Shown: positions 43,373 through 63,089 of the stretch, piece after piece | How positions within the stretch are numbered: position 1 is the first letter of the stretch | Layout of the letters: each line of letters begins with the position of its first letter | Source of the DNA: Polynucleobacter sp. Adler-ghost | GTDB taxonomy: Bacteria; Pseudomonadota; Gammaproteobacteria; Burkholderiales; Burkholderiaceae | Length of the DNA stretch: 64,000 nt | NCBI RefSeq assembly: GCF_018688495.1 | Contig: NZ_CP061320.1 | Coordinates: 2,018,586 to 2,082,585 of the forward strand | Direction of reading: 5' to 3' | The notes under the pieces: generated by a model | The model's database searches: none | Told to the model about the DNA's origin: nothing | Seen by the model: only the letters and a program-made list of their open reading frames with translations | Made by a program: the position numbers and the translations under genes

Positions 43373-43454
43373 GCTATCTCCTGCTTTTTATTATGAATTT
43401 CTATTGTCGTTTAAAACAACATCTTTTGAGTCCAGCATTAAGCCCACAAATTAG

Positions 43455-45435: not shown

Positions 45436-45441
45436 AATGAA

Positions 45442-45510: not shown

Positions 45511-45525
45511 TCTCTCTTCTAAATA

Positions 45526-47356: not shown

Positions 47357-47363
47357 TTACGAA

Positions 47364-47430
47364 AAAACCACCCTAAGGTGGTTTTAATGTTTCATGGGGG
47401 CCCGGGGCAGAATCGACCAGGGCCTAGAGC
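47364..47430. repeat. hotspot repeat copy 4: terminator plus decayed tRNA-Phe 3' end
   Basis: Hairpin AAAACCACC, loop CTAA, GGTGGTTTT (47364-47385). Then ATGTTTCATGGGGGCCCGG and GGCAGAATCGACCA, close to the tRNA-Phe 3' end (about 22 of 25 positions by eye), then AGGGCCTAGAGC. Lies between the convergent dps and the membrane gene, serving both. Confidence 0.78.
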
Positions 47431-48469: not shown

Positions 48470-48546
48470 AAAATCACCCGAAGATGGTTTTGGTGTTTCT
48501 TGGTGGCCCGGGGCGGAATCGAACCACCGACACAAGGATTTTCAAT
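48470..48546 (-). repeat. hotspot repeat copy 5: terminator plus exact 3' half of tRNA-Phe
   Basis: Hairpin AAAATCACC, loop CGAA, GATGGTTTT (48470-48491). Then 48497-48546 is identical over 50 bp to 50610-50659, the 3' half of the intact tRNA-Phe including CCA and up to the anticodon loop. The match stops at TTTTCAAT, in the anticodon. This is the outer left attachment site. Confidence 0.93.
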
Positions 48547-48591
48547 TATCCGCCTAAGCCAACTTTTGCAAGCCACCTTGGAAAGTTGACG

Positions 48592-50388
48592 CTATTCTTC
48601 AAATTTTTGGAATACCTGCTCAGAACCAATAGTCGTTAAGTACCCATTCGTCCTATAAAGCAGTCCTCCGTTAATTCTCATTTCACAGTCCTGCTCATTA
48701 CAAACTTGTGGATAAGTGTCATATGATTTAATTTTTAACTCATTGACTAACTTTTTAAGATTTTCTCTACCAATAAAATATTGTCCATCAATATCTTTAA
48801 CTTTTTGAGCGCACCCTACATTCAATACCGGACGGAAAGGCGGCATACCTACACACTCAATTGGGTCAAATGACAGATGCGGCGGCGGATATATAAAGAT
48901 TACTTGTTTATTATTTTTTCTAAAAAATTCAATTGTCCTTCTCAACTGCGCTGTTATTAAATTTGTAATTTCAGGTTGAGTCATTGTTAATACAACAGCT
49001 CTTATATTCTTATCTTCAGCAACGCCATTAATTAATTTATTCATTTGCTCTGATTGCTCTGAATCATAGTTTTTGTCGGAGGACAGTTTAATCAATGGCT
49101 GCCTGCCAGGCCATCCAACCATAGCAAAGTTTTTTCCATCTTCTAAATATTTTTTTGCCAAACCGGAGTAGTCATTGTGAGCAATACTATCGCCAATCAA
49201 TACTGTTTCTAATTTCTGAGTAACATTTGATAGCCTACAAAATGTTGGCTGATACTTAGCAAACATTATTAGGCAGCCTTCATCCGATTGCGGAGGGCGT
49301 CCGCCGTGTAAATCTAATACGTGCTTCTCCCTAAACTCTAATCCATTTCTAACATAGGCACTCCAGCCCTGTGTTCCCACCAATATCACTAAAAATAGTA
49401 ATGTTATGGTTACTTTATTGCCCTTACGTCGTAATAGCTTTTCCCAGTACCGATAAGTTAGATAAGCTAAGGCTATAGAAATAATTATTAAAATTATTTT
49501 GTAAAACGCAGATAATTTTCCAGCAGTAATGATTTGCCCAAAACTTAATAAAGGCCAATGCCAAAGATAAAGCGGGTAACTAATTAATCCAAACCAAATT
49601 ATTAATTTATTTGAAAAGATATTTTTATTTGCCCAACCATCTTTTCCTGCCGCAATAAGAAATACAGTGCCCAATGTAGGAAGCAATGCCCACCATCCGG
49701 GGAATGCACTCTTTTTATTTAAGGCGTAAATGGCAAGGGCTATTAAAAACAATCCTGCAACAGACAGGACGTTTGAATACTTAACACTAAATTTATTAGT
49801 GATACTTTCTTTTGTAAGGGACATGTATGCCCATACAGCACCAATTAGTAATTCCCAAAAACGACTAATAGGGGAATAAAAAGCGGCAATAGGATTGCTT
49901 CCGATTGTTAATACATTTGTAGCAAAAGATATGATGAGAATGAGTAGTACAACTTTGAGTACATTAAATTTTTTCTTAAAAGCAGCCCACAACACTAATG
50001 GCCAAAATATATAGAACTGCTCTTCTATAGCTAATGACCATAAATGTAGCAATGGTTTTGTATCAGAAGCATTATCAAAGTAACCACTCTCCCTCCATAA
50101 AGCAAAGTTCTGTAAGAAGCCAGCCCCAGCGGCAATGTGCTCACCTAACTGCTTATATTCTGAGGCGTATAAAGCAAACCAACCAAATGCGTAGCAAGTC
50201 AATAGCACTAAAAATAATGCCGGAAATATTCTTCTTATACGTCGGCTATAAAACTCAATAAAACTAAAAGAACCGCTTTGTAAATTTTCTAAAATAATTG
50301 TTGTTATTAGAAAACCAGATATTACAAAAAAAATGTCTACCCCAATAAATCCACCGCTAATTACATTTGGAAAGGCGTGAAAAGTCAC
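48592..50388 (-). CDS. acyltransferase-3 / SGNH protein, start codon missing
   Basis: OafA-type O-acyltransferase: about ten membrane helices with FIGVDIFFVISGFL and RRIRRIFPAL, then a C-terminal SGNH-like domain starting VLIGDSIAHNDY. The conserved N terminus continues upstream of GTG 50388 as KYRPDIDGLRALAV to about 50450. No ATG, GTG or TTG lies between that and the in-frame stop. Starting at GTG would cut the first helix. In the SGNH part the usual DxxHLS is replaced by TNGYLTTIGS, so the Asp-His dyad seems lost. AT-rich compared with neighbours. A surface-polysaccharide modifier, possibly decaying. Confidence 0.78.
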   Translation of the reverse strand: MTFHAFPNVISGGFIGVDIFFVISGFLITTIILENLQSGSFSFIEFYSRRIRRIFPALFLVLLTCYAFGWFALYASEYKQLGEHIAAGAGFLQNFALWRESGYFDNASDTKPLLHLWSLAIEEQFYIFWPLVLWAAFKKKFNVLKVVLLILIISFATNVLTIGSNPIAAFYSPISRFWELLIGAVWAYMSLTKESITNKFSVKYSNVLSVAGLFLIALAIYALNKKSAFPGWWALLPTLGTVFLIAAGKDGWANKNIFSNKLIIWFGLISYPLYLWHWPLLSFGQIITAGKLSAFYKIILIIISIALAYLTYRYWEKLLRRKGNKVTITLLFLVILVGTQGWSAYVRNGLEFREKHVLDLHGGRPPQSDEGCLIMFAKYQPTFCRLSNVTQKLETVLIGDSIAHNDYSGLAKKYLEDGKNFAMVGWPGRQPLIKLSSDKNYDSEQSEQMNKLINGVAEDKNIRAVVLTMTQPEITNLITAQLRRTIEFFRKNNKQVIFIYPPPHLSFDPIECVGMPPFRPVLNVGCAQKVKDIDGQYFIGRENLKKLVNELKIKSYDTYPQVCNEQDCEMRINGGLLYRTNGYLTTIGSEQVFQKFEE

Positions 50389-50582
50389 TACAGATAAAAC
50401 TGCTAACGCACGTAAGCCATCAATATCGGGGCGATACTTTTGGTGAAGTAAAAATAAATTTATGATTTTATGTTTTTAAAAAGTATGTAGTCTAACTTTA
50501 CCCCACCCTCCGTCACTTAAATCGACGCTTCATGCCGGGGATGTCTAAGACTAATGGCGCCTAACCCTGCTAGAGCATAAAA

Positions 50583-50605
50583 AATAGCCAAACAAGTGGG
50601 CTATT
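50583..50605 (-). terminator. terminator of tRNA-Phe
   Basis: Read leftwards: AATAGCC, nine-base loop, GGCTATT, then TTTTT. Different from the hotspot hairpin family. The 130 bp between it and the acyltransferase upstream region show nothing else. Confidence 0.82.
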
Positions 50606-50613
50606 GAGATTCT

Positions 50614-50689
50614 TGGTGGCCCGGGGCGGAATCGAACCACCGACACAAGGATTTTCAATCCTCTGCTCTACCGACTGAGCTACCAGGCC
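50614..50689 (-). tRNA. tRNA-Phe (GAA)
   Basis: 76 nt including encoded CCA. Acceptor GGCCTGG, D-arm GCTCAGTCGGTAGAGC, anticodon stem-loop with TTGAAAA (anticodon GAA) and T-arm GGTTCGA are all in place. Promoter -10 TATAAT at 50700-50705. Judging by its partial copies on both sides, its 3' half and 5' half may come from different integrated elements. Confidence 0.97.
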
Positions 50690-50697
50690 AAGAGTGG
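50652..50697. repeat. left attachment repeat of the 12-kb island
   Basis: 46 bp identical to 62941-62986, covering the 5' half of tRNA-Phe from the anticodon to five bases beyond the 5' end. After one mismatch the similarity runs on through the -10 box. Confidence 0.93.
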
Positions 50698-50841
50698 GAA
50701 TTATAAATGAAACTGTGTTTTAGCCTAGAAAATGCGGAAAACTGGGTTTACTCTAGAGAAACGCTGTTGATCCTGTAAGGGTGCGGATGTTTCATCCTGT
50801 TTAACGGTGGACGACTGGCAGAGATATGGGAATCCTCTGCT

Positions 50842-51054
50842 CTACGGCTTTATGGTCTTAGCTTTTATTAAACTTTGCTGTGCCTTAGCGACCTGCTGAC
50901 GCTGTCTTTCCGCTTTAACAGCCTGCTGACTGCGCTTAACTTGTAGCCTAAGCGCATTGATACGCTGCTGCTCAGGTGTTAGTGGTTTTTGTGGCTTGAT
51001 TGTGGCGACTTCTTTGATCAGCATAAAGATATTTAGTAGTGCCATGCCAAACAC
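50842..51054 (-). CDS. small basic protein downstream of integrase
   Basis: 70 aa: a short hydrophobic N terminus (MFGMALLNIFMLIKEVA), then a Lys/Gln-rich helix (RINALRLQVKRSQQAVKAERQRQQVAKAQQ). Starts 14 bp after the integrase stop. Could be a recombination directionality factor or nothing of the kind; no motif settles it. Confidence 0.55.
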   Translation of the reverse strand: MFGMALLNIFMLIKEVATIKPQKPLTPEQQRINALRLQVKRSQQAVKAERQRQQVAKAQQSLIKAKTIKP

Positions 51055-51068
51055 GGCACTACCTACTC

Positions 51069-52094
51069 TTAAATTAATACCTTCAAAATCATGTCTCGCT
51101 TCTGTTCGAGTGTATAGCCTACTGTTCCATACATATTAAATTCACTGCCGCCGCTACTGTGTCCAGTAATGCTCTCAGCAAGGCGGGTGGGGATATCATT
51201 GCGAGCCTTCATCCTGTCAATAATGGCATGCCTAAACATATGACTCTTAAAGTCAAATACCTTTAATGTTTTTTTAATAATTTGTGAGCAACTTGAATTG
51301 CCATTATCCCTTGCGTAATGTGGCACAAACCATTCACTATTTCGCCTCTTCGCAATCTTGTATAACTCTTTCGCAGCATCCAAAGATACCCCGCATAATG
51401 GAACAGCTCTAATACTTGACTTGGTCTTTCTGTCACTTAAGGTATTTCTCCGAATCCATAGATGCGGTATGTCGTGATCTAGTACACAGTCTTCCAATCG
51501 AGCAAACAAGGGCTCGCTTAGTCTAAATCCAGTATTAAGCTGAATTAAGGCAACCAACTTGTGTGGGGTTGAGTTCTTTAACAAATGCTCTTTTACTTGT
51601 TGTATCAATTGAGTGGTAATGATTGGCATTGGACGCCTTGTTTCACCCTCACCCCTAATCTTTAATGCCCTAAATGGGCTTAGTCTATCTATATCCAAAT
51701 GCTTAAAAGCAACATTGAGCATGGCGTTAAGGGTGTTGTTATGTTTACGAATACTTACAGGACTTAATCCTCTATTCAATTGGTAATCCCTATATTCAGT
51801 AATGTGCCAGTGCTTTAGCTCATCTAAAGTCAAGTCTCCAAAAAATTCTTTAAAGCTACGAAAGTGATAATTCGCATGTTTGACAAATGTAGGACGATGA
51901 GCAGATTTTGCTTCATTCATGTATATCTGAAAGGCATCTGTAATTGTAGGTAGCCTGCCACTTTTCTGTCTTGATAAATGCTCGCTAATAACTTTAGCAA
52001 TGAACTCTTCTTCAAAGTTCATGCCGTTGACATTGATTAACCGCTCGATTTTATCGAAGACGATTGGGTTTGGTTTTATTACGATGCTTCGCAT
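51069..52094 (-). CDS. tyrosine recombinase (left-end integrase)
   Basis: 341 aa. Core-binding domain around KHANYHFRSFKEFFGDLTLDELKHW. Catalytic residues: Arg in NTGFRLSEPLFARLED, HxxR in KSHMFRHAIIDR, His in ITGHSSGGSEFN and Tyr in MYGTVGYT. Resembles phage/ICE integrases that use tRNA sites. Lies next to the intact tRNA-Phe. Confidence 0.9.
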   Translation of the reverse strand: MRSIVIKPNPIVFDKIERLINVNGMNFEEEFIAKVISEHLSRQKSGRLPTITDAFQIYMNEAKSAHRPTFVKHANYHFRSFKEFFGDLTLDELKHWHITEYRDYQLNRGLSPVSIRKHNNTLNAMLNVAFKHLDIDRLSPFRALKIRGEGETRRPMPIITTQLIQQVKEHLLKNSTPHKLVALIQLNTGFRLSEPLFARLEDCVLDHDIPHLWIRRNTLSDRKTKSSIRAVPLCGVSLDAAKELYKIAKRRNSEWFVPHYARDNGNSSCSQIIKKTLKVFDFKSHMFRHAIIDRMKARNDIPTRLAESITGHSSGGSEFNMYGTVGYTLEQKRDMILKVLI

Positions 52095-52169
52095 AGTTTT
52101 CCTTGTTAAAGTAAAGTTGGATTACTCCGCGAACAAGGTGCCGTGGTTGACACGACACCTCTTAACAAC

Positions 52170-52610
52170 TTACTTACGAAAACCTGCTCTTAGTGCGCCA
52201 CTAGCAAACTCAATTTGACCATCTAGTTCACCCGCTTCTACTGCGCTTTTCACTAGCTCAAGCGCTTTCACTAACTCCGTAGGATTACCGACTTCAACGC
52301 TATGCTTGCCTTTAGCAAGCTCAAGTGGACGACTGCCGTATTTCACACAAAAGCAGACTTTGCCCAACTCGTTCTTAAACCACCATTCGCGAATACGCTT
52401 TGGCATTTCTATTTGCTTGCGTAGCCCCGTTTCTTTATCCGTAAAGCTACGATACTTTTTGACTACAAATTGCGTGCCATCTATTTGACTTTTAGCTAAC
52501 TGAATTTGTTCCCACAATTTATTTGATAGCTTTTGCCTACGCATCACTAAAGCTGGTAAATGCGTCGGCTTTTTGGCACTAGTAATTTTTAATCCGTCTA
52601 AAACACCCAT
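52170..52610 (-). CDS. DUF6641-like hypothetical protein
   Basis: 146 aa, basic. The patterns LDGLKITSAKKPTHLPALVMRRQKLSNKLWEQIQLAK and RIREWWFKNELGKVCFCVKYGSRPLELAKGKHSVEVG resemble a small family (DUF6641) found in integrated elements; assignment from memory. AGGAG ribosome site. Five ACTTGGT repeats lie directly upstream. Same strand as the integrase, 75 bp away. Confidence 0.68.
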   Translation of the reverse strand: MGVLDGLKITSAKKPTHLPALVMRRQKLSNKLWEQIQLAKSQIDGTQFVVKKYRSFTDKETGLRKQIEMPKRIREWWFKNELGKVCFCVKYGSRPLELAKGKHSVEVGNPTELVKALELVKSAVEAGELDGQIEFASGALRAGFRK

Positions 52611-52628
52611 TTTCTTTCTCCTAAATTA

Positions 52629-52678
52629 ACTTGGTTTACTTGGTTCTTTAGGTCACTTGGTGACTTGGTGAACTTGGT
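52629..52678. repeat. five direct repeats ACTTGGT at about 9-bp steps
   Basis: Starts at 52629, 52638, 52655, 52663 and 52672 (one step is twice the others). They occupy the promoter region of the leftward 146-aa gene. Iteron-like or an operator array. Confidence 0.7.
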
Positions 52679-52685
52679 CGATATA

Positions 52686-52749
52686 GGTTTAAGAAAACGC
52701 AGGTTTTTTGCTGTTTCTGAGTGATAAAAAACCTGCTTTTCCATAAACC
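52686..52749 (+). repeat. island palindrome R1
   Basis: GGTTTAAGAAAACGCAGGTTTTTT ... AAAAAACCTGCTTTTCC-TAAACC: imperfect inverted repeat with about 24-bp arms. Orientation opposite to R2 and R3. Preceded by ATATAG, the same string that ends kup, but no gene is left in front of it. Confidence 0.85.
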
Positions 52750-53754
52750 CTTTATAAACATTAGCTTCAAAGGCAATAAAGGACTACCAAAAAAGGCAGA
52801 AATTCGTCGTTTTTTGACTATACGGGGGGTGTTGTTAAAACTTCGTAATCAGCAATTTCGTGAAATGCGCTTAATACCGAAACAAGAAATTTACAAAAAT
52901 AGCCCTAGCAATACCTATTAATTTCGCAAATACAAAATTGATTATTAGGTCTAACTAGGTGGTAATTACGTCAAAACCTTCTTGTCGCTTCACTGCGCAT
53001 AGTGTTCTTGTCAAAGAGCAATTAAAAGCACTCAAATCAGCACTACAAGCGTGCGATATATCGAATCAGTTAGCTGAGTAGCTGAAATACGCAAAACAGC
53101 GCAGTGAGCTTGTAATTAACCCCTTAAATACACCATACCAAATAAGACTAATTTATTTGCGGTGTTTTATTAGGTTAGCTAAATAAACACATACAAATGA
53201 GACTTAAAGTTGGCACGCTGAATGTAATAGTGCTGTGAAATCCGTTCTGATGTGTGACGGTACACAAGAGTTGCTCATTACTCGCTTCTTCGCACTAACT
53301 AGCTGATGGCTAGATGCTTAAACGACGTCTCGATATGACAGCACCGTTTGCGAAGTCGTAATAGTTGGTAACGCAGTAATGCGTGAATAAAGTGAGTGGG
53401 ATGCCACAAATTAACCCACAAACACACCCACATGGCTTCTGGCATTGGTAGTGAGTGTGTTGCGTAAGACGAGTACATAAAAGGAGATCGCAAAACCTGC
53501 CTTTCTTGTTAAATCAAGTTGTGCGTGCCAGTTGTTAATCCTCAGTAATGATTAGCTATCGCTACGCCTTTATTAAGGCGTGGCTTGACTTCCTAGCAAT
53601 GACCAACCCAAAAGCAAAACCCTTAATAAATCATTTAATAAAAAATTAAAGAAATGAGCGGCAAACAAAAGCGTTAGCTTTTGTGTAGACGCAAGCGAAC
53701 TTTAGTTCGCTCTTAAATGAGCTCTGAAGTTAAGCTAAAGATTTAAGGGAAATT
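52750..53754. other. about 1 kb without recognisable genes
   Basis: No convincing ORF. Structures seen: hairpin ACGCCTTTATTAAGGCGT near 53566-53583; AAAAGCGTTAGCTTTT and GCGAACTTTAGTTCGC close together near 53666-53712, just ahead of the 53-aa gene; an AGGAG site near 53482 with no start codon behind it. May hold an origin, recombination site, or decayed gene. Confidence 0.6.
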
Positions 53755-53916
53755 ATGAGCGCATACAAAGTGACCTATACCGCTTATTCAAAGGGAAGTA
53801 CTGAAGTAGTAAGTGAAGGGGTAATGGAGATTAATACAAGCACTGCTTATCAAGCCGAACAAGCAGTAAAAGCAATATTTGCTGGACTTGATGTGCTTAT
53901 TAGGTATACAAATTGA
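53755..53916 (+). CDS. 53-residue hypothetical protein
   Basis: AAGGGAAATT then ATG: strong ribosome site. Reads MSAYKVTYTAYSKGSTEVVS ... IFAGLDVLIRYTN, alternating polar/hydrophobic strands then a helix (AYQAEQAVKAIFAGL), so a plausible small folded protein. A membrane gene begins 50 bp after its stop in the same direction. No family recognised. Confidence 0.6.
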   Translation: MSAYKVTYTAYSKGSTEVVSEGVMEINTSTAYQAEQAVKAIFAGLDVLIRYTN

Positions 53917-53966
53917 GTATGGTGAACTTTTACAAGATTACCTGCCTTACTCACAATGGATGCTCA

Positions 53967-54635
53967 ATGAAAACATATAAGAATTACTTGATAGCAACAG
54001 CCTTGGCCCTCGCCGCCTTTCTTGTTCTTAAGTTTCCTATGCTTTTTTCCCTTTCGGGTGATGTAGCTGCCGCAGCCTCTTTATGTGGCGCCCTAATTGC
54101 TGCGGCGGCAATATTTGTTGGAAATCAAATAAACATTAATGCGACCAATGACTTAAGGGCTGAAGAGCGGGAACAAGAGCGGGAATCGATCAGATGTCTG
54201 TTGATGTCTGAAATTGTTCCAATCTTCATCAGGCATGTAAAAGAAGCCAAACAATATATTGACTTATGTCAATTCATTACCCAAGGCGGACAAGCTGTAG
54301 TGCCATGGAGTGGTCACTATCAAATACTTGAAGCCAGCATCTATCATTCATTGATTAAAGAGCTTATTAAGCTGCCAGCTAAAGAAGCGGACGCATTGGT
54401 TACGCTCTACAGCCAGATGGTTGATACGCAAAAGGGCTTGGATAGCCTAATTGGATTGAATCTAGGTCAAATCAATCATTCAACAGCTCTAAAGTTAGCG
54501 AATCAGCTATCGGCAGATTGTGAGGCGGCAGCAAAAGTAGTTCAACTAATTGCCCCAAAACGACAAATTAAGTTAGTAAATGGCAAAGTCATTAACTTCG
54601 TAGAGTTACTAAAAGATCCATCCCTTTTTGGGTAG
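53967..54635 (+). CDS. membrane-anchored hypothetical protein
   Basis: 222 aa from ATG 53967 (GGA seven bases upstream; the frame opens at 53913). Two hydrophobic helices (YLIATALALAAFLVLKFPMLF; AAAASLCGALIAAAAIFVG), then a cytosolic charged coil (DLRAEEREQERESIRCLLMSEIVP) and a helical domain. The layout is common for accessory proteins of mobile elements. Function unknown. Confidence 0.7.
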   Translation: MKTYKNYLIATALALAAFLVLKFPMLFSLSGDVAAAASLCGALIAAAAIFVGNQININATNDLRAEEREQERESIRCLLMSEIVPIFIRHVKEAKQYIDLCQFITQGGQAVVPWSGHYQILEASIYHSLIKELIKLPAKEADALVTLYSQMVDTQKGLDSLIGLNLGQINHSTALKLANQLSADCEAAAKVVQLIAPKRQIKLVNGKVINFVELLKDPSLFG

Positions 54636-54664
54636 ACTCCTCAAAATTTAACTAAATACCAATA

Positions 54665-54690
54665 CATAAGGTTTCGTGTGAAACCTTATG
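54665..54690 (+). terminator. hairpin terminator
   Basis: CATAAGGTTTC, loop GTGT, GAAACCTTATG, then TTTTATGG: perfect 11-bp stem 29 bp after the membrane gene. Confidence 0.75.
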
Positions 54691-54738
54691 TTTTATGGGA
54701 TAGAGGGCATAACCTCTTGAAATAACTGAGGAAAAATA

Positions 54739-55404
54739 TTGATAAGAAAAGATGAAATTTCGGTAGGAAAAAATTACATAAGAAATTACGCTGCTGCTAT
54801 AGCAACCTTATATTTGGACAAGAAAACTATGGCAAAGCAGGCAAAAACACTCAATCAGCAAGAGTTACGCAAAGTACTCGATTACATATCAACCCGCAAA
54901 CATGCTGCCCGTAATAGAGCGTTACTAATGACTACTTTTTTAAGCGGTATGCGTGTCGGGGAAGTTAGCAGTTTGAGATTTAAGGATGTTGTAGATAGTG
55001 ATGGCAATATCCGTCATGAAATACGCTTAACGCCAGAAATGACTAAGGGTGAGTTTGCTAGGGTGGTATTCGTAAATGAGCGATTGCGTAAAGAGCTACA
55101 CCAATACATACGCTTCTATAACCCACAAGACAAGACTATGAAGTTCTTTTATAGTCAAAAGCGGAATAGCGATGGCTTTACTGCTAATACCTTGACACAG
55201 CACTTCCACTTTCTATACAAACGGGCTGGCATAGATGGCGCATCCAGCCATAGTGGTCGCAGGAGCTTTATTACCAATCTCGCTAGCAAGGGCGTATCTG
55301 TTCGTGTGCTAATGAGCCTTGCGGGCCATAGATCCATCTCTACTACTCAGGCCTATATCGACATTAATGACAATATGCTCCGAGGTGCTGTCGAGTTAGT
55401 TTAA
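54739..55404 (+). CDS. short tyrosine recombinase, catalytic domain only
   Basis: 221 aa from TTG 54739, which has GAGGA in front; ATG 54829 would give 191 aa. It lacks the N-terminal core-binding domain. Catalytic residues: Arg in SGMRVGEVSSLRFKDV, HxxR in SSHSGRRSFITNLAS, His in LAGHRSISTTQAYIDI with Tyr. Such small recombinases can be accessory or regulatory. Overlaps the next convergent gene by 4 bp. Confidence 0.87.
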   Translation: MIRKDEISVGKNYIRNYAAAIATLYLDKKTMAKQAKTLNQQELRKVLDYISTRKHAARNRALLMTTFLSGMRVGEVSSLRFKDVVDSDGNIRHEIRLTPEMTKGEFARVVFVNERLRKELHQYIRFYNPQDKTMKFFYSQKRNSDGFTANTLTQHFHFLYKRAGIDGASSHSGRRSFITNLASKGVSVRVLMSLAGHRSISTTQAYIDINDNMLRGAVELV

Positions 55405-56474
55405 TTGCCCCCTACCAGCAGAGGCTGTGGCAAGTCTTTTAAACTAAGGTACTTAATAAATTGATCTCCAATTTGCCAGTATTCAGAAGGCTCTATCTCA
55501 TTCGTCAAAGTTAATGTTTGCTCAATAAACTGCGCATCTTTGAGCAAGTCTGGCAAAAGGAGGTATTTGAAATAATTTTCCCATTGCTGAATTTGTAGAC
55601 GATTTCCTTTTACTGGCTTTGATGCCCCCTTGTATATATTAATCATCTTCAAAAATTTACTATGTAAAAAATAGTAATACCGCTTGTAAGTGAAGTTAAT
55701 AAGATATGACAACGCTTTATTTGTTGGTATTTCAGTCAAGCAAATATCTTCTAGCCTCTCAAGCTCTTCAGCCTCATAAGACCCATAGGTTTTGATTAAT
55801 TGCGCTGCTTTCTTATATTCATCTATACAGCTTATTAGCCATAATTCAGTTAGACCTAACCTTGCCCCATCAGCAGCATCTTTATATTCTTTGTATTGCT
55901 TGTGGGCATCAGAAAATTCAAGGATTGCCTCAGCCTGCTCTTGGGGTCTGGATATTGATAGTATGTGCGACTTATTTGCCTCATTTAAATATGTCGTCCA
56001 TATCTCCTCCAACTCTTCGCTATGAAATGATTCTTGAAGATCAAAAGGAAAGCCATACTCTCTTTCATAATCACGCTGACTTTCATACTTTTCTAGTATC
56101 TGTTTCATACTTCTGTATTGACCAGTTTCAGTGTCATAGACCTCAAAGTAATTTGGGACGTAGAAATCTGGGTCATTAATAATTGATCTAATAATTTGCT
56201 CGACTCTTACTCTATTAGCATCCCATAATCGTTGACCATTCTCAACTAAATTATTGATAAGAAAATATCTCAGCCCTGAGGTGTTTGCTAAAAAAATTTG
56301 GTCTTGAAGGTATTGGTCAATCAACTGCTGAACTGTTTGATATAAAGGATCTTTCTGGCCTAGACTTAATATCTCTGGATATTCGCCAATCAAATCTAAC
56401 TTGGATTGCCTGAGAGCGCCCGCTTTGTTCTTAATATATGAGTTCCACTCGGGCTGGTTTTGAATTAAGTTCAT
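55401..56474 (-). CDS. 357-residue protein of unknown family
   Basis: Largely helical, acidic and rich in Tyr, Gln and Leu, no signal or membrane segment, no catalytic motif that I recognise. Segments such as QQLIDQYLQDQIFLAN, EEIWTTYLNEANKSHI and ISFIDEY-like runs suggest a repeat-helical scaffold. Convergent with the short recombinase and separated from kup by R2. Confidence 0.75.
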   Translation of the reverse strand: MNLIQNQPEWNSYIKNKAGALRQSKLDLIGEYPEILSLGQKDPLYQTVQQLIDQYLQDQIFLANTSGLRYFLINNLVENGQRLWDANRVRVEQIIRSIINDPDFYVPNYFEVYDTETGQYRSMKQILEKYESQRDYEREYGFPFDLQESFHSEELEEIWTTYLNEANKSHILSISRPQEQAEAILEFSDAHKQYKEYKDAADGARLGLTELWLISCIDEYKKAAQLIKTYGSYEAEELERLEDICLTEIPTNKALSYLINFTYKRYYYFLHSKFLKMINIYKGASKPVKGNRLQIQQWENYFKYLLLPDLLKDAQFIEQTLTLTNEIEPSEYWQIGDQFIKYLSLKDLPQPLLVGGN

Positions 56475-56530
56475 GGCTGTATCAAATTAGTTAAGACTTT
56501 TTGAATTCTAAGCCCAGCCGAATACTTTGG

Positions 56531-56590
56531 GATTGATTAAAAAGCAGGTTTTTCATAACATACCAAAAAAAACCTGCTTTTCCTTAAACC
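56531..56590 (-). repeat. island palindrome R2, terminator of kup
   Basis: Starts at the kup stop codon. Leftward: GGTTTAAGGAAAAGCAGGTTTTTTTT ... AAAAACCTGCTTTTTAAT. A long stem with T-run, so a likely terminator, and homologous to R1 and R3. Confidence 0.88.
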
Positions 56591-58527
56591 TATATTTCTA
56601 CCTTTGCCCCCAACTCAACAACCCTATTGGTTGGTATTGAAAAGAAGTCTGATGGCTTGGCGGCATTTTGATACATCCATGCGAATAGCCTTTCTCTCCA
56701 TAACGCCATTCCTGGGATTGCCGAAGGAACCACCGTATCTCGAGCCAAGAAGAAAGAAGTTTCCATTGGCTCACATTTAATGTCGTATTGATTGGCCAAT
56801 AACTCCATAATTTGATTAATGTCTGGAGTCTCTTTAAAGCCATACATTGCTCTTACTAGATAAACTCCACCACCCATCTCCTTCAAGTTGATGCGATCCT
56901 TGTCCTCAACATAAGGAACATCCCAAATACTCATTTTGAGAAAAATAACTCTCTTGTGGAGAACTTGATTGTGCTTAAGGTTATGAAGCATTGCGACAGG
57001 TACATAGTCAACATGCGCCGTCAAAAATACTGCCGTACCATTAACTCGAATTGGCTCACTTACCAATAAAGACTTGATAAATGCTTCAAGTGGAATGCCG
57101 CCCTCGATTGCCTTCTGGCGCAATAACATTCTGCCTTTGTACCAAGTAATCAATAAAAGGAAGCATAGTGCCCCAAGCAATAATGGGAACCATCCACCTT
57201 CAGCAATTTTTAAAGCATTAGCCGCAAAGAAGGCAATATCTACCAGAAGAAAGACTCCAATCACAGTCGAAACTAAGATTGAATTCCACTTCCACACAGA
57301 CTTCATTACTATTGCCGCTAATAAAGTAGTGATCACCATAGTCGTTGTTACCGCAATTCCATAAGCGGCCGCTAGATTACTTGATTGCTTAAATGCCAAC
57401 ACTACAGCAATGACCAAAGCCAATAACATCCAGTTAATTGTTGGCATATAAATTTGTCCAACTTCTTTGTCTGATGTGTAGGCAATTTTCATGCGCGGAA
57501 CAAAGCCTAGCAATATGGCTTGGCTGGTCATGGAATACGCGCCAGATATTACTGCTTGCGAAGCAATGACGGTAGCCATTGTTGCGAGGATCACGAGGCC
57601 AAGCGTATACGCCTCAGGAACCATTAAGAAAAATGGATTTGATATTGCCTCTGGATTAGACAAGAGCATGGCTCCTTGTCCAAAATAATTAATGAGCAGG
57701 CAAGGCATTGTTAATAAGAACCATGCGTATTGAATCGGTCTAATACCAAAGTGCCCCATATCAGCATAGAGCGCTTCTGCGCCTGTTAATACTAAAAATA
57801 CTGCCCCCAAAACTATGAATGCTTGTAGGGAATGCTCAAGTAAAAAGTTAATGGCAAATATTGGATTGGCCGCAAGTAAAATATTGGGGTTATCAATAAT
57901 GTTGTATGCGCCCATTAACCCAAGAACCAAGAACCATGCCACCATGATTGGCCCAAATAAAAAACCAACTAAAGCAGTTCCTTTTTTCTGAATTAAAAAT
58001 AGGGCGACAAGAATAGTGAGCGTTATAGGAATGACATACTTGGTAAATTGAGGAGAAACAATTTCAAGCCCTTCGACTGCCGATAGCACTGAAATTGCGG
58101 GTGTAATAACAGCGTCTCCATAAAACATACAAGCACCAAATACGCCTAGCATCATGATCATCAATGCCCTCTTGGAGTTTGCTGGCGCAGTTCTGAGGGC
58201 TAATGCCATCAAAGCCAGTATTCCGCCTTCGCCATGATTATTGGCTCGCATAACAAAGAGGACATATTTGAGAGAAACAACAATTAAGAAAGCCCAGAAG
58301 ACCATCGATATCACTCCAAACACCGCATCCGATGAAAACGGAATGCCATGCTCAGGGCTAAAACATTCTTTTAGCGCATACAGGGGGCTGGTTCCAATAT
58401 CTCCGAAAACTACACCAATGGCCGCAAGAGTTAGGGCGGGAACGCTCCCTTTGCTGTGGTGGCCACCCTTAATCTCTATTGGACGAAGAATGTTTGACTG
58501 TGAATACTCTGGATTACTAATGGACAT
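56590..58527 (-). CDS. kup: potassium transporter Kup
   Basis: Low-affinity proton-coupled K+ importer. 645 aa: about 12 membrane helices starting with the signature [19 protein letters not shown] (about residues 38-56), [43 protein letters not shown], and a C-terminal cytosolic region. Last gene of a leftward kdpD-kdpE-kup operon (63 bp after the regulator). Carried inside the tRNA-Phe element. Confidence 0.96.
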
Positions 58528-58590
58528 GGTCTTACTCGTTGATTTGAATACCCCATCAGATCATGTGCGATGTATCAATCGCATAAACAA

Positions 58591-59277
58591 CTATGAAATA
58601 GCTAAGCGGTAGCCTACACCAAGCTCAGTTAATAGGTATTCAGGCTCAGAAGATACTTTTTCTATCTTGGCCCTTAATCTACCCATATGAATTCTGAGGT
58701 AATGGGTGTCATCCACATATTCAGAACCCCAAATTTCTGAAAGTAATTGGCGCTGGGTAAAGATTCTTCCTGGCTTTGTAGCCAATAGCATTAGCAACTT
58801 ATGCTCTATTGGGCTTAGATGTATGTCATTACCCTCCAGCTTTACCAGTCCAGCAGACACATCAATTAGCAAGTCTTTGTATTGATAGCACTGATCGCGC
58901 ATAGACATCTTTTGAGTGCGTCTTAAGCAAACATTGATTCTTGCTAATAGCTCTTGAACATTAAATGGCTTAGACAAATAATCGTCTGCGCCTTCATTGA
59001 GGGCAATAATCTTTTCCTGCTCCTCTTGCCTTGCTGAGAGGACAATAATCGGAAAATCATATTGCTTTCTTACTTGCTGAATTAAATCTTTTCCATCACC
59101 ATCTGGCAACCCTAAATCGAGAATCATGAGCTTTGGCGTATTTTCAGCCAAACATTTATTTGCCTCTTCTAAAGATTTGGCTAATTTAGGAAGGTGCTTT
59201 GCGGCACTCAAGCTAGCTACTAAGAAATGGGCAATTTGCTCATCATCTTCTACAACCAAGATGTAATCTGAAATCAT
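58591..59277 (-). CDS. KdpE-like response regulator (OmpR family)
   Basis: 228 aa. Receiver: VVEDDEQIAHF (acidic pair), phospho-Asp in LMILDLGLPDGDG (about residue 54), Lys in DYLSKPFN. Winged-helix effector: LSPIEHKLLMLLATKPGRIFTQRQLL and DDTHYLRIHMGRLRAKIE, closest to KdpE. ATGA overlap with the kinase gene. There is no kdpFABC in the window; the only target at hand is kup. Confidence 0.93.
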   Translation of the reverse strand: MISDYILVVEDDEQIAHFLVASLSAAKHLPKLAKSLEEANKCLAENTPKLMILDLGLPDGDGKDLIQQVRKQYDFPIIVLSARQEEQEKIIALNEGADDYLSKPFNVQELLARINVCLRRTQKMSMRDQCYQYKDLLIDVSAGLVKLEGNDIHLSPIEHKLLMLLATKPGRIFTQRQLLSEIWGSEYVDDTHYLRIHMGRLRAKIEKVSSEPEYLLTELGVGYRLAIS

Positions 59278-60779
59278 GCGCTTGCTTTAAAAGGAAAGGC
59301 CATACCAACATATGTCTTCTTATTATCGCCAAATGGAGACTCGATGATTAGCCAGCCTTGATGCTTATCCATCACTGCCCTAACTATAGGCAAACCCAAA
59401 CCAAACCCTTTTTTATTGCGCTGATATGACTGTTGCTGTCCCGCTAATTCCTTATCAAAATCCTTAGGAAATCCAGCACCCTCATCAATTACGCCAATCC
59501 GAATTTCGCCATCAACCCTATCTACCAATATCTGTATTGGATTGCTGCCTAAATGTGCCTTGCTTGCGTTCTCAATCAAATTAGTTAATGCCAATACGAT
59601 TAAGGCTTGATCACCATAGATAAGTTCATCTTTTGCCATCATTAGCAATTCTAGTGATGGCTTTACTTCTCTATTGTTATATCTCGACATAACCGCCCCA
59701 ACAATTTCTTCGGGCGACTGCCAATCCATTCGCATCTGGTTACCATCAGACATTCCCAGCTTAACCAAAGATAGTATGTTTTCAGTTGAGTCATTGAGAT
59801 ATACAGATTCTGAATGAATTAGCTCTAACAGCTGTATGGATTGCGCTTCTCCCAACTGCTGACCCTGCTTCAAAAGTGATGAGCTGGCGCCAATAATAGT
59901 AGTTAAAGGAGTTCTCATATCATGCGAGATAGACGACAAGAAAGCCTTTTGAATAGACTCGCGATGCGCTAACTCGCTGGCATCTTTTGCTTTAATTTCT
60001 GCTATTCTTTTTTGATAATGAACTGATAGCTGATCAGCAATTGCCCTTATCAGGCTCACTTCAATATTTTCTTCGTGCGCCCTCTCAATTACCAAAGCAG
60101 GAAGCTCGTGGCTTTTGTAATATCTTCCAAGTGGAACACACCAATAATCTATTGCCTCTGAGGTTCCCGTATGTGGACCCAACATAGCTCCGTACTCAAT
60201 TGCGTGTGAGAGGTACCAAAAGTCGAGCTTTACTTCACCCGGCCTAGAGCTTGCTAATTCAATACTGTCTTTGGTTGTTGGATCTAACTTCAAAATCGCA
60301 ACCTCACATCCCAGCTCTCTTTTAAGCAATAGGCAGAATTTCTGTAAAGCAACCATAGAGTCAGTCTCTACTGAGAATATTTCGATAATCGCTCGTAATA
60401 GATTGGCTTTAAAGGTTTCTTTTTCGGCAATGTCCTTTTGGCCTCTTAACTGATGTACCAAAGAGGTAATCGCAATAGATACCAATAAAAATCCAAGCAA
60501 TGCGCTCCAAGACTCAATACTTCCGATAACAAAGGTATATCTCGGCTCTACATAAAAGAAATTAATGAGAAGAAAAGATGCTATTGCTACAAAGATAGAG
60601 GTGGCTAATTGGCTCTTGTAGGAAACCCAGATGACAAGAATCAAATAGAGAAATGACACTCCCGCCAAACCAAGATAATCATCAACCACATGGGATAAGG
60701 CGGTTATCCCAATCATTCCCAGAAAAATGCTCATTGCCTCAAGTAAGAGCGGGCGTTTCGAAGATTTTCTATTTGTCAT
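59274..60779 (-). CDS. KdpD-like histidine kinase lacking the N-terminal Kdp domain
   Basis: 501 aa from ATG 60779 (alternatives at 60815 and 60821; the frame opens at a TTG inside R3). Four membrane helices of the KdpD DUF4118 region, a GAF-like part, HisKA with SSISHDMRTPLTTIIGASSSLL, and HATPase boxes LTNLIENASKAH, DEGAGFPKD and GFGLGLPIVRAV. The large N-terminal KdpD and Usp sensor domains of the standard ~900-aa protein are absent, so it is the C-terminal half only. First gene of the K+ operon. Confidence 0.88.
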   Translation of the reverse strand: MTNRKSSKRPLLLEAMSIFLGMIGITALSHVVDDYLGLAGVSFLYLILVIWVSYKSQLATSIFVAIASFLLINFFYVEPRYTFVIGSIESWSALLGFLLVSIAITSLVHQLRGQKDIAEKETFKANLLRAIIEIFSVETDSMVALQKFCLLLKRELGCEVAILKLDPTTKDSIELASSRPGEVKLDFWYLSHAIEYGAMLGPHTGTSEAIDYWCVPLGRYYKSHELPALVIERAHEENIEVSLIRAIADQLSVHYQKRIAEIKAKDASELAHRESIQKAFLSSISHDMRTPLTTIIGASSSLLKQGQQLGEAQSIQLLELIHSESVYLNDSTENILSLVKLGMSDGNQMRMDWQSPEEIVGAVMSRYNNREVKPSLELLMMAKDELIYGDQALIVLALTNLIENASKAHLGSNPIQILVDRVDGEIRIGVIDEGAGFPKDFDKELAGQQQSYQRNKKGFGLGLPIVRAVMDKHQGWLIIESPFGDNKKTYVGMAFPFKASA

Positions 60780-60853
60780 ACGATCAATATACATTCGACC
60801 ATATATCAATCGCATATACATCTTTGAGGTGGCTAAAAAGTCACTAAACATAA

Positions 60854-60913
60854 GGTTTATTAAAAAGCAGATTTTTTCACGACCCTCCAAAAAAACCTAC
60901 TTTTCCTTAAACC
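60854..60913 (-). repeat. island palindrome R3
   Basis: Leftward from the stop of the 193-aa gene: GGTTTAAGGAAAAGTAGGTTTTTTT ... AAAAAATCTGCTTTTTAATAAACC. Same position relative to a TATAG stop as R2. Also forms the 5' flank of the kdpD operon. Confidence 0.86.
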
Positions 60914-61494
60914 TATACCTTCTTAGTCTTTTTGGCAGGCTTTTTTCCTTCCCTTAGCCATTCAAGATGCTCTCGCTCTTCATCACTAAGGGTATCTTCA
61001 GCCCGCTCAAGTGTTTGCTTTTCTAACTCTCTTATTTCTTTATCTCTTTTATTTGCCACGCCTCTGTCAAGGCTTGGCGTAAATCCCGCCTGTCTCACAG
61101 CAATGTTTCCAGCGCTATGTTTATCTTGTAATCCCGTAGCGCCAAAAAAACCCTTTAAGTAAGCCTTAGTAGCTTGCGCCTGCTCTCTAGCTAACTGCTT
61201 TAGATGAATATTTATAATATCTCCCTCTAACTCACCCAATGCCTGCCTATAGATTTCAATACGCACTTCGCGCTTATCTTTCCAACCTAGATTTTGCTTT
61301 TCTTCTTCAGTCTTTGGTGGTTTATGTTTTTTGCGCAATGCTTGTTGTTGAGTCCACGCATCAGCCAGCGCTCTTTGTTGCCCTTCAGTTAGCAAAGTGC
61401 CATTCTTATTCTGGTGAACTTCTTCACCACGCTCTAGCTGATCAATGACTTCTTGTATGCGGCTTGGTAAGTGTGTGGCATTTAACTTTGGCAT
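60913..61494 (-). CDS. charged coiled-coil hypothetical protein
   Basis: 193 aa, mostly Lys/Glu/Gln-rich helix: IQEVIDQLERGEEVHQNKN at the start, then ADAWTQQQALRKKHKPPKTEEEK and EIRELEKQTLERAEDTLSDEEREHLEWLREG. Ends in a lysine tail. 23 bp after the integrase stop on the same strand, so likely an accessory gene of that integrase. Confidence 0.65.
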   Translation of the reverse strand: MPKLNATHLPSRIQEVIDQLERGEEVHQNKNGTLLTEGQQRALADAWTQQQALRKKHKPPKTEEEKQNLGWKDKREVRIEIYRQALGELEGDIINIHLKQLAREQAQATKAYLKGFFGATGLQDKHSAGNIAVRQAGFTPSLDRGVANKRDKEIRELEKQTLERAEDTLSDEEREHLEWLREGKKPAKKTKKV

Positions 61495-61517
61495 AGGTAG
61501 CAGTTCCGCTATGTATT

Positions 61518-62729
61518 TTAGCCAAGGATATCAGCCTTTAACATCGGCGTGAGCTTGCTGTAATGCCGCTCAATCATCCCAACACTCGTACCCATTTGCT
61601 TGGCCAAGGTGTGTATGTCGACGCCCTTGGCTAACGCTTGGGTAGCATAGGTATGGCGAAGGCTGTAAAGCGTCCTGTTCTGCCCACTAGTATCTTTACG
61701 CAAATGGCTACGCATCATTAAGTTACGAAAGATGTTCTCCATGTGGCTTAGCTGACTGTTATCAGGCAATACGAAGATCAACTTATTCAATCTTGCTTCA
61801 ATCACCGTATTCAAGTTCTTGTATTCCAGCTTTTGCCACTTAATCAATTGCTCTAGTACAGCGACTACTTCACGCCTAGCAATTAAGTAGCGCGGTCCTG
61901 TTTTGCCACTGACCCAAATACGCAGATACTTTTTATTACCAACCCAATACCACTGTAGATGTTGCCATCGCACACGCAAGGCTTCTGTGCCGTGCCTAAC
62001 ACCTGTATGTAGCAAGAACTGAACATACGCGCCGCAGAGTATGCGCATCTTTAGCGTGTGTTCTGTGTAGGAACTCTTTTGCCAAGTCTCTAAGTAGCTC
62101 AGCATCGTTGCCACTTCTTCGTTATTAAACGCGGGGCGCGGCATACCCTTTGCGCCTTTGCTGTTTAAGGCCGGCACGATATGGCTTGCCGTAACCATGC
62201 CACGCTCGCGAGCTAGATTAATTACGCGGTTATAAGCACTTGAGTGATTTAGCTTCGTGCTTCCTTTTGGCACCTTGCCCATCATCGCAATACGCCACGC
62301 TTCAAAGTCCGCAATGAGTTCAGGCGTGATGTCTTTAATTTCATAAGCGCCGAAGAAAGGAATTAAGTATTTGTTAATCGCAAATTCGTAATCTCTATAC
62401 GCACGCTTACCTGTACTGGCATTAATTAAGCGACGCATATTTTCTAATTCGTCTAACGCAATTTGCTTAAACGACCTCATCGTCAACGCTAAGCCGAAGT
62501 TTATTTTTATTTGTGCTGTGTGATAAATCGAGACTGCTTGTATCTTTGCTTGCTCAACATCATCTGTGCCTGTTGTTGCGTGATGCCACTTGTTGTTCGC
62601 TAACTTAAATCGACACTGCCACTGTGACGAGCTGGGACGCTTATAAACATTGATTTTTCCGTCCATTAGCTTAATGACAGCATCGTCACTAACAACTGCG
62701 TTAGCAAAAAGAAAATTGAGATTAGACAT
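61518..62729 (-). CDS. tyrosine recombinase (right-end integrase)
   Basis: 403 aa. N-terminal Arm-type beta domain (INVYKRPSSSQWQCRFKLANNKWHHATTG), core-binding domain, catalytic domain with Arg in LLHTGVRHGTEALRVRW, box II TLYSLRHTYATQALAKG (Tyr in place of the first His), and Tyr nucleophile in GMIERHYSKLTP. Lies about 210 bp from the right attachment repeat; best candidate for the enzyme that inserted the island. Confidence 0.92.
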   Translation of the reverse strand: MSNLNFLFANAVVSDDAVIKLMDGKINVYKRPSSSQWQCRFKLANNKWHHATTGTDDVEQAKIQAVSIYHTAQIKINFGLALTMRSFKQIALDELENMRRLINASTGKRAYRDYEFAINKYLIPFFGAYEIKDITPELIADFEAWRIAMMGKVPKGSTKLNHSSAYNRVINLARERGMVTASHIVPALNSKGAKGMPRPAFNNEEVATMLSYLETWQKSSYTEHTLKMRILCGAYVQFLLHTGVRHGTEALRVRWQHLQWYWVGNKKYLRIWVSGKTGPRYLIARREVVAVLEQLIKWQKLEYKNLNTVIEARLNKLIFVLPDNSQLSHMENIFRNLMMRSHLRKDTSGQNRTLYSLRHTYATQALAKGVDIHTLAKQMGTSVGMIERHYSKLTPMLKADILG

Positions 62730-62940
62730 AGCAACTCGCGAAATAAAAATTACGCTTGCTATTGTGTTGTCAGATAATTATTTGTGCGACTGAAATATTT
62801 TTGCCGCGCGACGCTCTGTGTATGCGTGTGATGTTTGTAGTTTTTTTATTTGTCGCCGAACCCGCAGATGCCTATTTTACAAGGGTTTGCGGGTAGCTTA
62901 AGTCAATGTCTTAGCACTGTTTTTTACTCAAAAATTAGCG

Positions 62941-62986
62941 TTTTCAATCCTCTGCTCTACCGACTGAGCTACCAGGCCAAGAGTGG
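62941..62986. repeat. right attachment repeat (5' half of tRNA-Phe)
   Basis: 46-bp exact copy of 50652-50697. The -10 box TATAAT is retained at 62989-62994, so the displaced original promoter seems to be here. Between the integrase and this repeat (62730-62940) I see only an inverted repeat ACCCGCA/TGCGGGT (62860-62894) and AT-rich sequence. Confidence 0.93.
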
Positions 62987-63089
62987 AAATTATAAATGAA
63001 AGTGCGTTCCCGCCTGAAAATCGGGTCAATTCTTCTTAAGTCTTGGATAAATCCCGATATTCCTTAGCTAGAGGCTCTTACATCAAGGC

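Follow-up and report, generated by a model that had tools for sequence, protein, structure and literature searches.

Probable two-sided use of a tRNA gene

The 64,000-nucleotide stretch of DNA from Polynucleobacter sp. Adler-ghost analysed here (the window) holds a single tRNA gene, a tRNA-Phe(GAA) predicted by ARAGORN, and raises the question of how this gene came to be flanked by exact copies of its own two halves. A preliminary description of the sequence had reported a 50-bp copy of the 3' half and a 46-bp copy of the 5' half with its flank, and exact extension reproduced both: 48497-48546 equals 50610-50659 (50/50), and 62941-62986 equals 50652-50697 (46/46), the 5' copy continuing at 90% identity across 80 nt as far as 63020. 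Chance cannot reasonably account for exact matches of this length that keep the register of one gene. Queried with 171 bases around the tRNA-Phe, the whole genome returned a single complete match, both partial copies and, elsewhere, three partial matches of lower identity (76-79%). A control covering 30 of its 37 tRNA loci, with matches at locus edges (L258, L273) set aside, found partial tRNA copies within 1.5 kb only at tRNA-Lys(ttt) (two short pieces). An additional exact 15-nt fragment of the 5' half, absent from the preliminary description, lies at 50831-50845.

That both copies end in the anticodon loop was also stated earlier and held, with the common block now corrected to seven nucleotides, TTGAAAA (TTTTCAA on the plus strand at 50652-50658, 48539-48545 and 62941-62947). 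The agreement of the eighth base of the 3' copy is most likely due to chance, since this base is kept in only three of the 19 loop-class 3' copies of the genus (0.16).

The comparisons make it very probable that the tRNA-Phe gene is a two-sided integration site with a single crossover at the anticodon loop, where element A renewed the 3' half and element B the 5' half (Table 1). The integrase-less A would have recombined at the loop, so that a fresh 3' half with its terminator came in and the old 3' half moved to 48497; B would have recombined at the same loop, its own 5' half and upstream flank displacing the host 5' half to 62941. As each element would have renewed one half, both parts of the intact gene that flank the loop would be mobile DNA; flank and linkage comparisons support this chimera, which had been suggested before. 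The B event would be catalysed by int1 and that of A by another integrase acting in trans, element DNA would drive tRNA-Phe, and the displaced host promoter would read into int1. The basis of this reading is comparative, consisting of the exact copies, the common loop, the empty sites for B, the presence of B elsewhere, an A-type unit in another genome (G073) and recurrence across the genus.

Table 1. Features of the tRNA-Phe region (window positions)
Feature	Position	Strand	Remarks
Degraded terminator/3'-end copy, tRNA-Phe family	43441..43486	-	
Degraded tRNA-Phe 3'-end/terminator copy	44210-44243		
Older displaced tRNA-Phe 3' end + terminator	45436..45513	-	T-arm class
Degraded tRNA-Phe 3'-end/terminator copy	~46574-46617		
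Older displaced tRNA-Phe 3' end + terminator	47361..47427	-	T-arm class; end of DUF6803 block
Displaced 3' half of tRNA-Phe	48497..48546	-	Loop to CCA + 4 nt, then terminator-like hairpin to 48463
Element A	48546..50651	-	One-gene cassette, 2.1 kb
AT3-SGNH acyltransferase	48592..50388	-	Cargo of A; best PHROG phrog_6705, O-antigen acetylase
Intact tRNA-Phe(GAA)	50614..50689	-	Sole full copy in 2.1-Mb genome; putative chimera, 5' half B-borne, 3' half A-borne
Anticodon loop, 7 nt	50652..50658	-	TTGAAAA; putative crossover (overlap) region common to A and B
Element B	50659..62940	-	12.3-kb island replacing 5' half, with integrases
Upstream flank of intact tRNA	50690..50811	-	Probably B-borne; similar in G079, G035; TATAAT visible
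Small ORF, 70 aa	50842..51054	-	Adjoins inner tRNA end; recurrent in related islands
int2, second tyrosine recombinase	51069..52094	-	Among 52 regions elsewhere only in G132 (92%)
DUF6641 protein	52170..52610	-	Backbone
Imperfect palindrome	52681..52753	none	Repeat family inside B
B ORF	53913..54635	+	No Pfam or PHROG match
int3 recombinase	54739..55404	+	Match over catalytic domain only; recurrent in backbone
B ORF	55401..56474	-	No Pfam or PHROG match; 32% relative in G035
Palindrome	56530..56595	none	kup end of cargo
B cargo	56590..60890	-	kup 56590-58527, response regulator 58591-59277, KdpD-like kinase 59274-60890
Palindrome	60856..60917	none	kdpD end of cargo
Backbone ORF, 193 aa	60913..61494	-	No Pfam match; also G035 (59%), G116 (56%)
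int1, tyrosine recombinase, 403 aa	61518..62729	-	211 nt past displaced 5' half
Displaced host 5' half of tRNA-Phe + upstream flank	62941..63020	-	TATAAT visible

Element A and the array on the 3' side

Element A holds one large ORF (AT3+SGNH) and no integrase was found in its 2.1 kb, in agreement with the left element of the preliminary description, so that it is classed as an integrase-less cassette and not as an autonomous island. As in Islander-type islands, a 3' fragment lies downstream in the same orientation; the integrase gene that such islands carry inside was not found. That A gave the 3' half, as had been proposed, gains support from G073, in which an A-type unit opens with a 52-nt stretch matching the same tRNA 3' end and tail at 94% and closes with a degraded 3' copy whose start is close to the loop. 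This unit lies ~44 kb from the tRNA-Phe of that genome, whose upstream side is empty. The acquisitions of the AT3 gene in G073 and in the window look separate, because the two genes share 65% nucleotide identity as against 83% in the nearby CBS region.

The left part of the locus is the youngest member of an array whose like is met throughout the genus, a circumstance invisible to the preliminary description.

Displaced 3' pieces were found downstream in 46 of 52 genus genomes (203 pieces, all in the orientation of the tRNA); not one 3' match in the 52 regions is on the opposite strand, and the single upstream match comprises terminator only. They start preferentially at two places, the loop and the T-arm: among 186 pieces in 41 genomes, 19 start at positions 1-2, eight at 4-10, 121 at 21-27 and 38 at 33 or beyond, and among the 203 of all 52 genomes, 32 start at position 10 or before, 129 at 11-27 and 42, which hold little tRNA sequence, beyond 27. 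Because BLAST start was used to separate loop-class from T-arm-class copies, the boundary profiles of the classes are partly a product of construction, the independent fact being the start distribution. The 3' side forms an array of small, often one-gene blocks (75 of the 129 T-arm blocks, with a median of 1057 bp), in which 202 of 214 homologous block pairs have no common neighbour. Alignment reached both block ends in 75 of these 214 pairs, one end in 80 and neither in 59, the families being overjoined by single linkage. The tRNA target, the repeated tRNA ends and the presence or absence of cassettes that mark additive tRNA islands were all observed, in a comparison between species and not between strains.

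It could be argued that B alone is foreign, the copy at 48497 belonging to a tRNA-derived repeat that spreads and the acyltransferase block being old chromosome, given that degraded 3'-end copies are common downstream and that the halves are identical, so that polarity comes from linkage. The uniform strand and downstream position of the 3' matches, their two preferred starts and the shuffled look of the blocks speak against this and make it improbable. A dispersed repeat was rejected. When the 3' copies were used as queries against the whole genome, they matched the array copies and gave short matches elsewhere.

Element B, its empty sites and its flanks

Element B displays the arrangement of a 5'-fragment tDNA island, with an intact tDNA, a displaced 5' fragment upstream in the same orientation, tyrosine integrase genes inside the interval (int1, int2, int3) and empty sites in relatives. 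Residues R245, K276, R358 and Y390 of int1, which we take to be catalytic, are invariant in all ten aligned sequences. A natural empty site was found in G059, where L310 2802-3860 corresponds to window 62941-63998 (1059 nt, 86.9%), and another in G073 (249 nt, 93.6%). Matches to window 62900-63089 end at the loop in these two genomes, and those in G035 and G116 continue past it into the island; the latter pair has the same B backbone with other host flanks and partly other cargo. The comparison with strains lacking either element, advocated in the preliminary description, has in this way produced empty sites for B; an exact empty site for A was in no genome found by the comparisons.

Displaced 5' pieces occur upstream in 13 of the 52 genomes, a count that does not form a fair rate beside that of the 3' pieces, because G011 and G048 were included in the sample for their 5' pieces and the reach was uneven (upstream ~16-17 kb, longer only for G018, G076, G079 and G091; downstream ~19 kb, more for G000, G014 and G027 and 3-4 kb for G011 and G048). 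Fourteen displaced 5' halves, in 12 genomes, stop exactly at the last base of the loop, and two more pieces (G104, G121) stop 4 nt short of it; all 16 are upstream, the one 5'-type match downstream being a tRNA-like sequence in G032. The 5'-type and 3'-type pieces each occur without the other in other genomes, which, together with the empty sites for B and its presence in G035 and G116, favours the two elements joined at one core that had been postulated.

These observations also bear on whether a single 14.4-kb element (48546-62940), carrying a complete tRNA-Phe, split the gene at a 7-8 bp core. The geometry alone would fit, with a short core, halves at the outer ends and, between them, a complete gene of that isotype, and the accessible part of one source describes such phages, whose short core lies in an essential single-copy tRNA gene with a full tRNA nearby (PMC10865867). 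However, B with its tRNA is present in G035 and G116, two genomes that do not belong to the 68 (of 186) in which AT3 was matched at E <= 1e-60, and the A-type unit of G073 is remote from a tRNA with an empty upstream side. Moreover, whereas in tRNA-dependent lysogeny the junction does not rebuild the tRNA, which is brought whole as one unit, here the halves would rebuild the gene and the two units are found apart in relatives. A single element with its own tRNA was rejected on the separate occurrence of A-type and B-type units, and is very improbable.

For two elements meeting at the loop, the tRNA letters cannot tell which half is foreign, because the intact halves are identical to the displaced ones, and flanks and linkage must do so. 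The flank evidence is mixed. The 40 nt ahead of the intact gene differ at eight positions from the displaced host flank, which itself differs at 2/40 from the empty site of G073; the flank of the intact gene differs at 2/40 from the displaced flank of G048 and at 4/40 from that of G014, whose intact gene lacks an insert upstream. The proposal that the right element gave the 5' half draws its support from the empty sites of G059 and G073 and from the closeness of the displaced flank to the latter. Consensus scans of the tRNA strand gave no sigma-70-type site ahead of either the intact or the displaced copy, a TATAAT being visible at both.

Relatives of the integrase int1

Among 80 named loci with int1 relatives, the upstream side bears a 5' half in 20 (tRNA-Phe or tRNA-Met, the integrase gene starting 154-257 nt past the half), a full tRNA in 17 and a 3' half in two, and 41 have no tRNA piece within 700 nt upstream on the int1 strand. 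Eight of these 41 have less than 700 nt of upstream DNA; L226, L228, L235 and L237 present a full tRNA-Phe and L220 a 5' piece on the opposite strand, L176 has a 5' half 1.5 kb away, and L195, L200, L203 and L205 have tRNA-Arg(tct) pieces or genes further away. In G076, G079 and G121, int1 does not adjoin the displaced half. In P. parvulilacunae an int1 with 94% identity adjoins a 5' half. Relatives were also detected at two loci of viral contigs (44% and 42%), in 15 plasmid records (23-29% identical among the matches listed) and in two phage records (24%); none of the 70-aa ORF was found in viral contigs.

A quick tree, from which four rows below 350 aa (L189, L213, L214, L230) were left out, placed the int1 relatives at 5' halves on one side and a second, reversed group of 5'-side islands on the other. 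Side alone determined the 5' label of G076, G079 and G121, and side the 3' label of G014, G026, G073 and G132; the reversed G018, G027 and G091, which have displaced 5' halves, stood unlabelled on the 3' side of the split. With these included, 5' replacement extends beyond a single clade; in a smaller tree (13 rows, reversed rows as 5') the 5'/3' branch support was only 61/62.

Partial copies could also have been left by plain homologous recombination or by segmental duplication around the tRNA, with no site-specific recombinase involved. This would suit the finding that only 75 of 214 block pairs align at both ends, and also the YcaO-type neighbour gene of G076, which is split between the intact tRNA and the displaced end (so that longer homology can play a part). 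It was rejected as highly unlikely because 14 of the 16 upstream pieces end at one loop-end base, which is also where the matches of empty and occupied sites break off, and because integrase genes adjoin the halves at the short distances given above.

Known systems and implications

Islands with 5' halves, tandem islands and additive cassette islands at tRNA genes are already known. In the accessible text on Islander, 159 of 3919 islands have a 5' fragment and 2083 are anticodon-centred (PMC4383910), and a review, in the part available, considers the 5' situation seldom met in bacteria (PMC8371274). B resembles such islands in its intact tRNA, displaced 5' end, tyrosine integrase and anticodon-centred crossover; unlike them, the same tRNA and loop are here also used from the 3' side, and one group of int1 relatives adjoins 5' halves of tRNA-Phe or tRNA-Met. 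The archaeal pTN3-like integrases likewise use a tRNA 5' half as attB, the rebuilt tRNA being read from the integrase promoter, according to the same portion of that review (PMC8371274); the present case is bacterial.

Additive flexible genomic islands at tRNAs are described, in the accessible parts of the sources, for Alteromonas, Ca. Actinomarinales and Ca. Methylopumilus, whose fGI-2 has the last 20 nt of tRNA-Lys as repeats and sizes from 330 bp (PMC10872708, PMC7771536, PMC4119200). Cassettes added at a tRNA and marked by direct repeats of its end are shared with these; here, unlike there, the repeats have two start classes, often with a terminator, T-arm blocks often hold one gene, and growth is upstream as well. 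The tycheposon, with a tRNA border, a tyrosine recombinase and cargo (4-200 kb), fits loosely by its description in the available text (PMC10872708).

It is possible, though doubtful, that tRNA-Phe constitutes an integron-like two-sided capture platform, in which integrase-less one-gene cassettes, stacked on the 3' side at a T-arm or loop site, would be served in trans by the integrases of islands stacked on the 5' side at that loop, the tRNA and its start signal being repeatedly renewed with the product unchanged. Integrons build an array of small, often one-gene cassettes that grows from one site by means of IntI and attC. The small cassettes and growth from one site are, by this general description, alike, whereas the entry site would here be a tRNA gene.

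Finders of the type of Islander, which in its accessible description requires an integrase and a length of at least 2 kb (PMC4383910), would by design overlook most of the 3' array. Two questions become open to test at this locus: in what way an integrase has come to exchange the 5' half of a tRNA instead of the 3' half, and by what means one-gene cassettes that lack an integrase spread among freshwater bacteria. If the reading is true, an essential single-copy gene would repeatedly receive its halves and flanks from mobile DNA, that is, a core gene would be kept up by its own parasites.

A tRNA-Phe gene bounded by two elements

The window (2018586-2082585) belongs to a single-contig genome of 2.10 Mb, in which the Rfam tRNA model finds 37 tRNAs. 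The only full tRNA-Phe gene lies between two partial copies of itself that share its anticodon loop, TTGAAAA, with element B, a 12.3-kb island, extending from the displaced 5' half to the intact gene, and element A, a one-gene cassette of 2.1 kb, extending from the intact gene to the 3' copy.

Features of the tRNA-Phe region (window coordinates)
Feature	Position	Strand	Remarks
Intact tRNA-Phe	50614-50689	-	sole full copy in the genome
Displaced 3' half	48497-48546		downstream of intact gene; 3' half plus 4 nt more, identical over 50 nt
Displaced 5' half	62941-62986		upstream of intact gene; 5' half plus flank, identical over 46 nt
5'-half piece	50831-50845		15 nt, exact; 142-156 nt upstream of intact gene
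Element A	48546-50651	-	single large ORF, AT3 fused to SGNH
Element B	50659-62940	-	also encodes a DUF6641 protein and ORFs without family matches
int1	61518-62729	-	tyrosine recombinase, 403 aa
int2	51069-52094	-	tyrosine recombinase, 341 aa
int3	54739-55404	+	tyrosine recombinase, 221 aa, matched over catalytic domain only
kup-kdpDE cargo	56591-60821		kup and KdpDE-like pair
Palindrome family	52681-52753, 56530-56595, 60856-60917		imperfect, ~65 nt; brackets the cargo

Element B and the 5' half of the gene

Two related genomes offer natural empty sites for B, since window positions 63998-62941 in G059 (1059 nt, 86.9%) and 63189-62941 in G073 (93.6%) run directly into an intact tRNA. When 63089-62900 was searched against 186 genus genomes, the match ended at the loop in these same two genomes, and in G035 and G116 it began some 17 nt ahead of the tRNA start and ran on past the loop into the island. 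The latter two carry the B backbone (int1 at 94% and 80%, respectively), in each case with a displaced 5' half at one end and an intact tRNA-Phe at the other. The 40-nt flank of the window's intact gene differs from the displaced flank at 8 positions; the displaced flank is nearest to the G073 empty site (2/40 differences), and the intact flank is nearest to a displaced flank of G048 (2/40), yet at 4/40 it is also close to that of the intact gene in G014, where nothing is inserted upstream. Strongly because of the empty sites, with the flank distances as a weak addition, it is concluded from these sequence comparisons that the displaced 5' half probably belongs to the host and that B would have brought in the intact gene's 5' half and upstream flank.

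The 15-nt piece inside B has degraded counterparts at about the same position in G121 and G048; an older junction and an arm site are both candidate readings. In G076 (loci L111, L127) part of a YcaO-type neighbour gene lies by the intact tRNA and another part by the displaced 5' half 22 kb off, as though host flank had been taken up by the island. Relatives of int3 share regions with int1 in 13 genomes, nine of which have a 188-aa reading frame.

The kup-kdpDE cargo matches a stretch of the downstream array of G012 (94.1% over 4231 nt) and is therefore found both in an island on the 5' side and in an array on the 3' side. It is absent from the G035 backbone, where a single palindrome-family site stands instead (L308, 11465-11529). 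Relatives of this family occur in G011 and G117, and the G012 cargo is flanked by another palindrome type, GTCGTTTTAAACGAC. Such palindromes may mark cargo exchange inside islands.

Element A and the genus-wide array

The nearest PHROGs family to the AT3-SGNH protein is an O-antigen acetylase. In G073 a relative with 60% aa identity is located some 44 kb downstream of the tRNA. Ahead of it is a tRNA-Phe 3' end carrying the window's tail (52 nt, 94%), and behind it a degraded 3' copy (76%) that starts near the loop; an A-type unit therefore comprises tRNA 3' part, tail, gene and end. Between window and G073 the AT3 genes share only 65% DNA identity, against 83% for the nearby CBS region, which argues for separate acquisition of the two genes. 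The DUF6803 block that adjoins A in the window has the same tail at its start in G024 (48522-48386, 92.8%), the displaced piece there beginning at the T-arm, and both genomes can be read as holding one older DUF6803 block capped by different newcomers.

The surroundings of tRNA-Phe were compared in 52 regions (the window, 49 single-contig genomes and two drafts), each with exactly one intact gene. Downstream, 203 displaced 3' pieces were found in 46 of the 52 genomes, up to 11 per genome and all tRNA-oriented; upstream, 13 genomes carry 16 displaced 5' pieces, 14 of which end on the loop's final base. The exceptions are one upstream 3'-type match, confined to the terminator (G076), and one downstream 5'-type match to a tRNA-like sequence (G032). 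This tRNA-Phe-like sequence (L140) lies about 700 nt downstream of the gene, with the same anticodon arm and a diverged remainder. Six genomes had no downstream piece within the stretch read, one of them (G061) having array-like copies about 210 kb off.

The loop and the T-arm are the main start points of the 3' pieces. Blocks have a median of 1057 bp in the T-arm class (n=129, of which 75 contain a single ORF of 80 aa or more) and of 2715 bp in the loop class (n=32). A Pfam scan of a chosen sample of 25 block proteins found no recombinase and left four without match, the others being ordinary small enzymes, transporters and stress proteins, among them GNAT, cation efflux, DinB, Sbt_1, Cu/Zn SOD, MAPEG and Dps. 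Comparison between genomes gave 214 pairs of homologous blocks, of which 202 had no common neighbour and only 75 aligned to both block ends. Across 150 genomes sampled from the whole family, with at most six candidates scored per genome and additional full tRNA-Phe genes also counting, at least two matches to the 3' copy were found in 15/15 genus members versus 16/135 others. Elsewhere in the window's genome, two short displaced tRNA-Lys(ttt) pieces (L245, 493-551) lie about 1 kb from the tRNA-Lys(ttt) gene, perhaps a second, weaker hot spot.

Relatives of int1

Polynucleobacter supplies about half of the best 80 of 373 named int1-relative contigs, the closest relatives included, several contigs coming from genomes also among the 52. 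A tRNA 5' half lies 154-257 nt upstream of int1 in 20 of the 80 loci: ten are tRNA-Phe halves (eight end at nt 38) and ten are halves of a CAT-anticodon tRNA, called Met, that end at nt 39, the end of that tRNA's loop. A full tRNA occurs in 17 further loci and a 3' half in two; 41 have no tRNA piece within 700 nt upstream on the strand of int1, some having tRNA genes or pieces further off or on the opposite strand. A quick tree of 89 rows split labelled 5' from 3' rows by one branch (SH-aLRT 100), with G076, G079 and G121 labelled 5', and G014, G026, G073 and G132 labelled 3', by side only. The reversed upstream islands of G018, G027 and G091, left unlabelled, fall on the 3' side, so that 5' replacement seems, on this tree, to occur in at least two integrase groups.

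A Methylophilaceae MAG (L177) has a 5'-type locus, and in Ca. Methylopumilus universalis (L176) the 5' half is 1.5 kb away. L180 carries the same island type at the CAT-anticodon tRNA, with a displaced 5' half (nt 1-39; 3783-3821) beside int1 and the intact gene 5.3 kb further (9094-9170). In two Polynucleobacter loci (L235, 3598-3673; L237, 1-76) a full tRNA-Phe has an int1 relative divergent just upstream, resembling the reversed islands.

Proposed mechanism and known systems

The B circle would have the order promoter, tRNA 5' half, loop, right arm, int1, and its integration would place the element's promoter before the tRNA and the displaced host promoter before int1. Element A would need an integrase supplied in trans, since none was found in it. 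The arrangement proposed for B is that reported for archaeal pTN3-like integrases and said there to be rare in bacteria (PMC8371274). The Islander account gives 159 of 3919 islands with a 5' tRNA fragment, and tandem arrays of two or more in 125 cases and of three or more in four, its criteria including an integrase and a length of at least 2 kb (PMC4383910). Cassette addition at tRNAs has been treated as additive flexible genomic islands (PMC10872708, PMC7771536, PMC4119200).

No prior description of the locus was found in the open-licence literature on Polynucleobacter islands and integrases or tRNA cassettes; a 2017 study of genomic islands in Polynucleobacter may already cover it in part. 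As far as literature searches go, three aspects appear to be new: the use of a single loop of one essential tRNA from both sides, an array of small blocks that spans the genus and has two classes of start, and an integrase group found next to the 5' halves of tRNAs of two isotypes.
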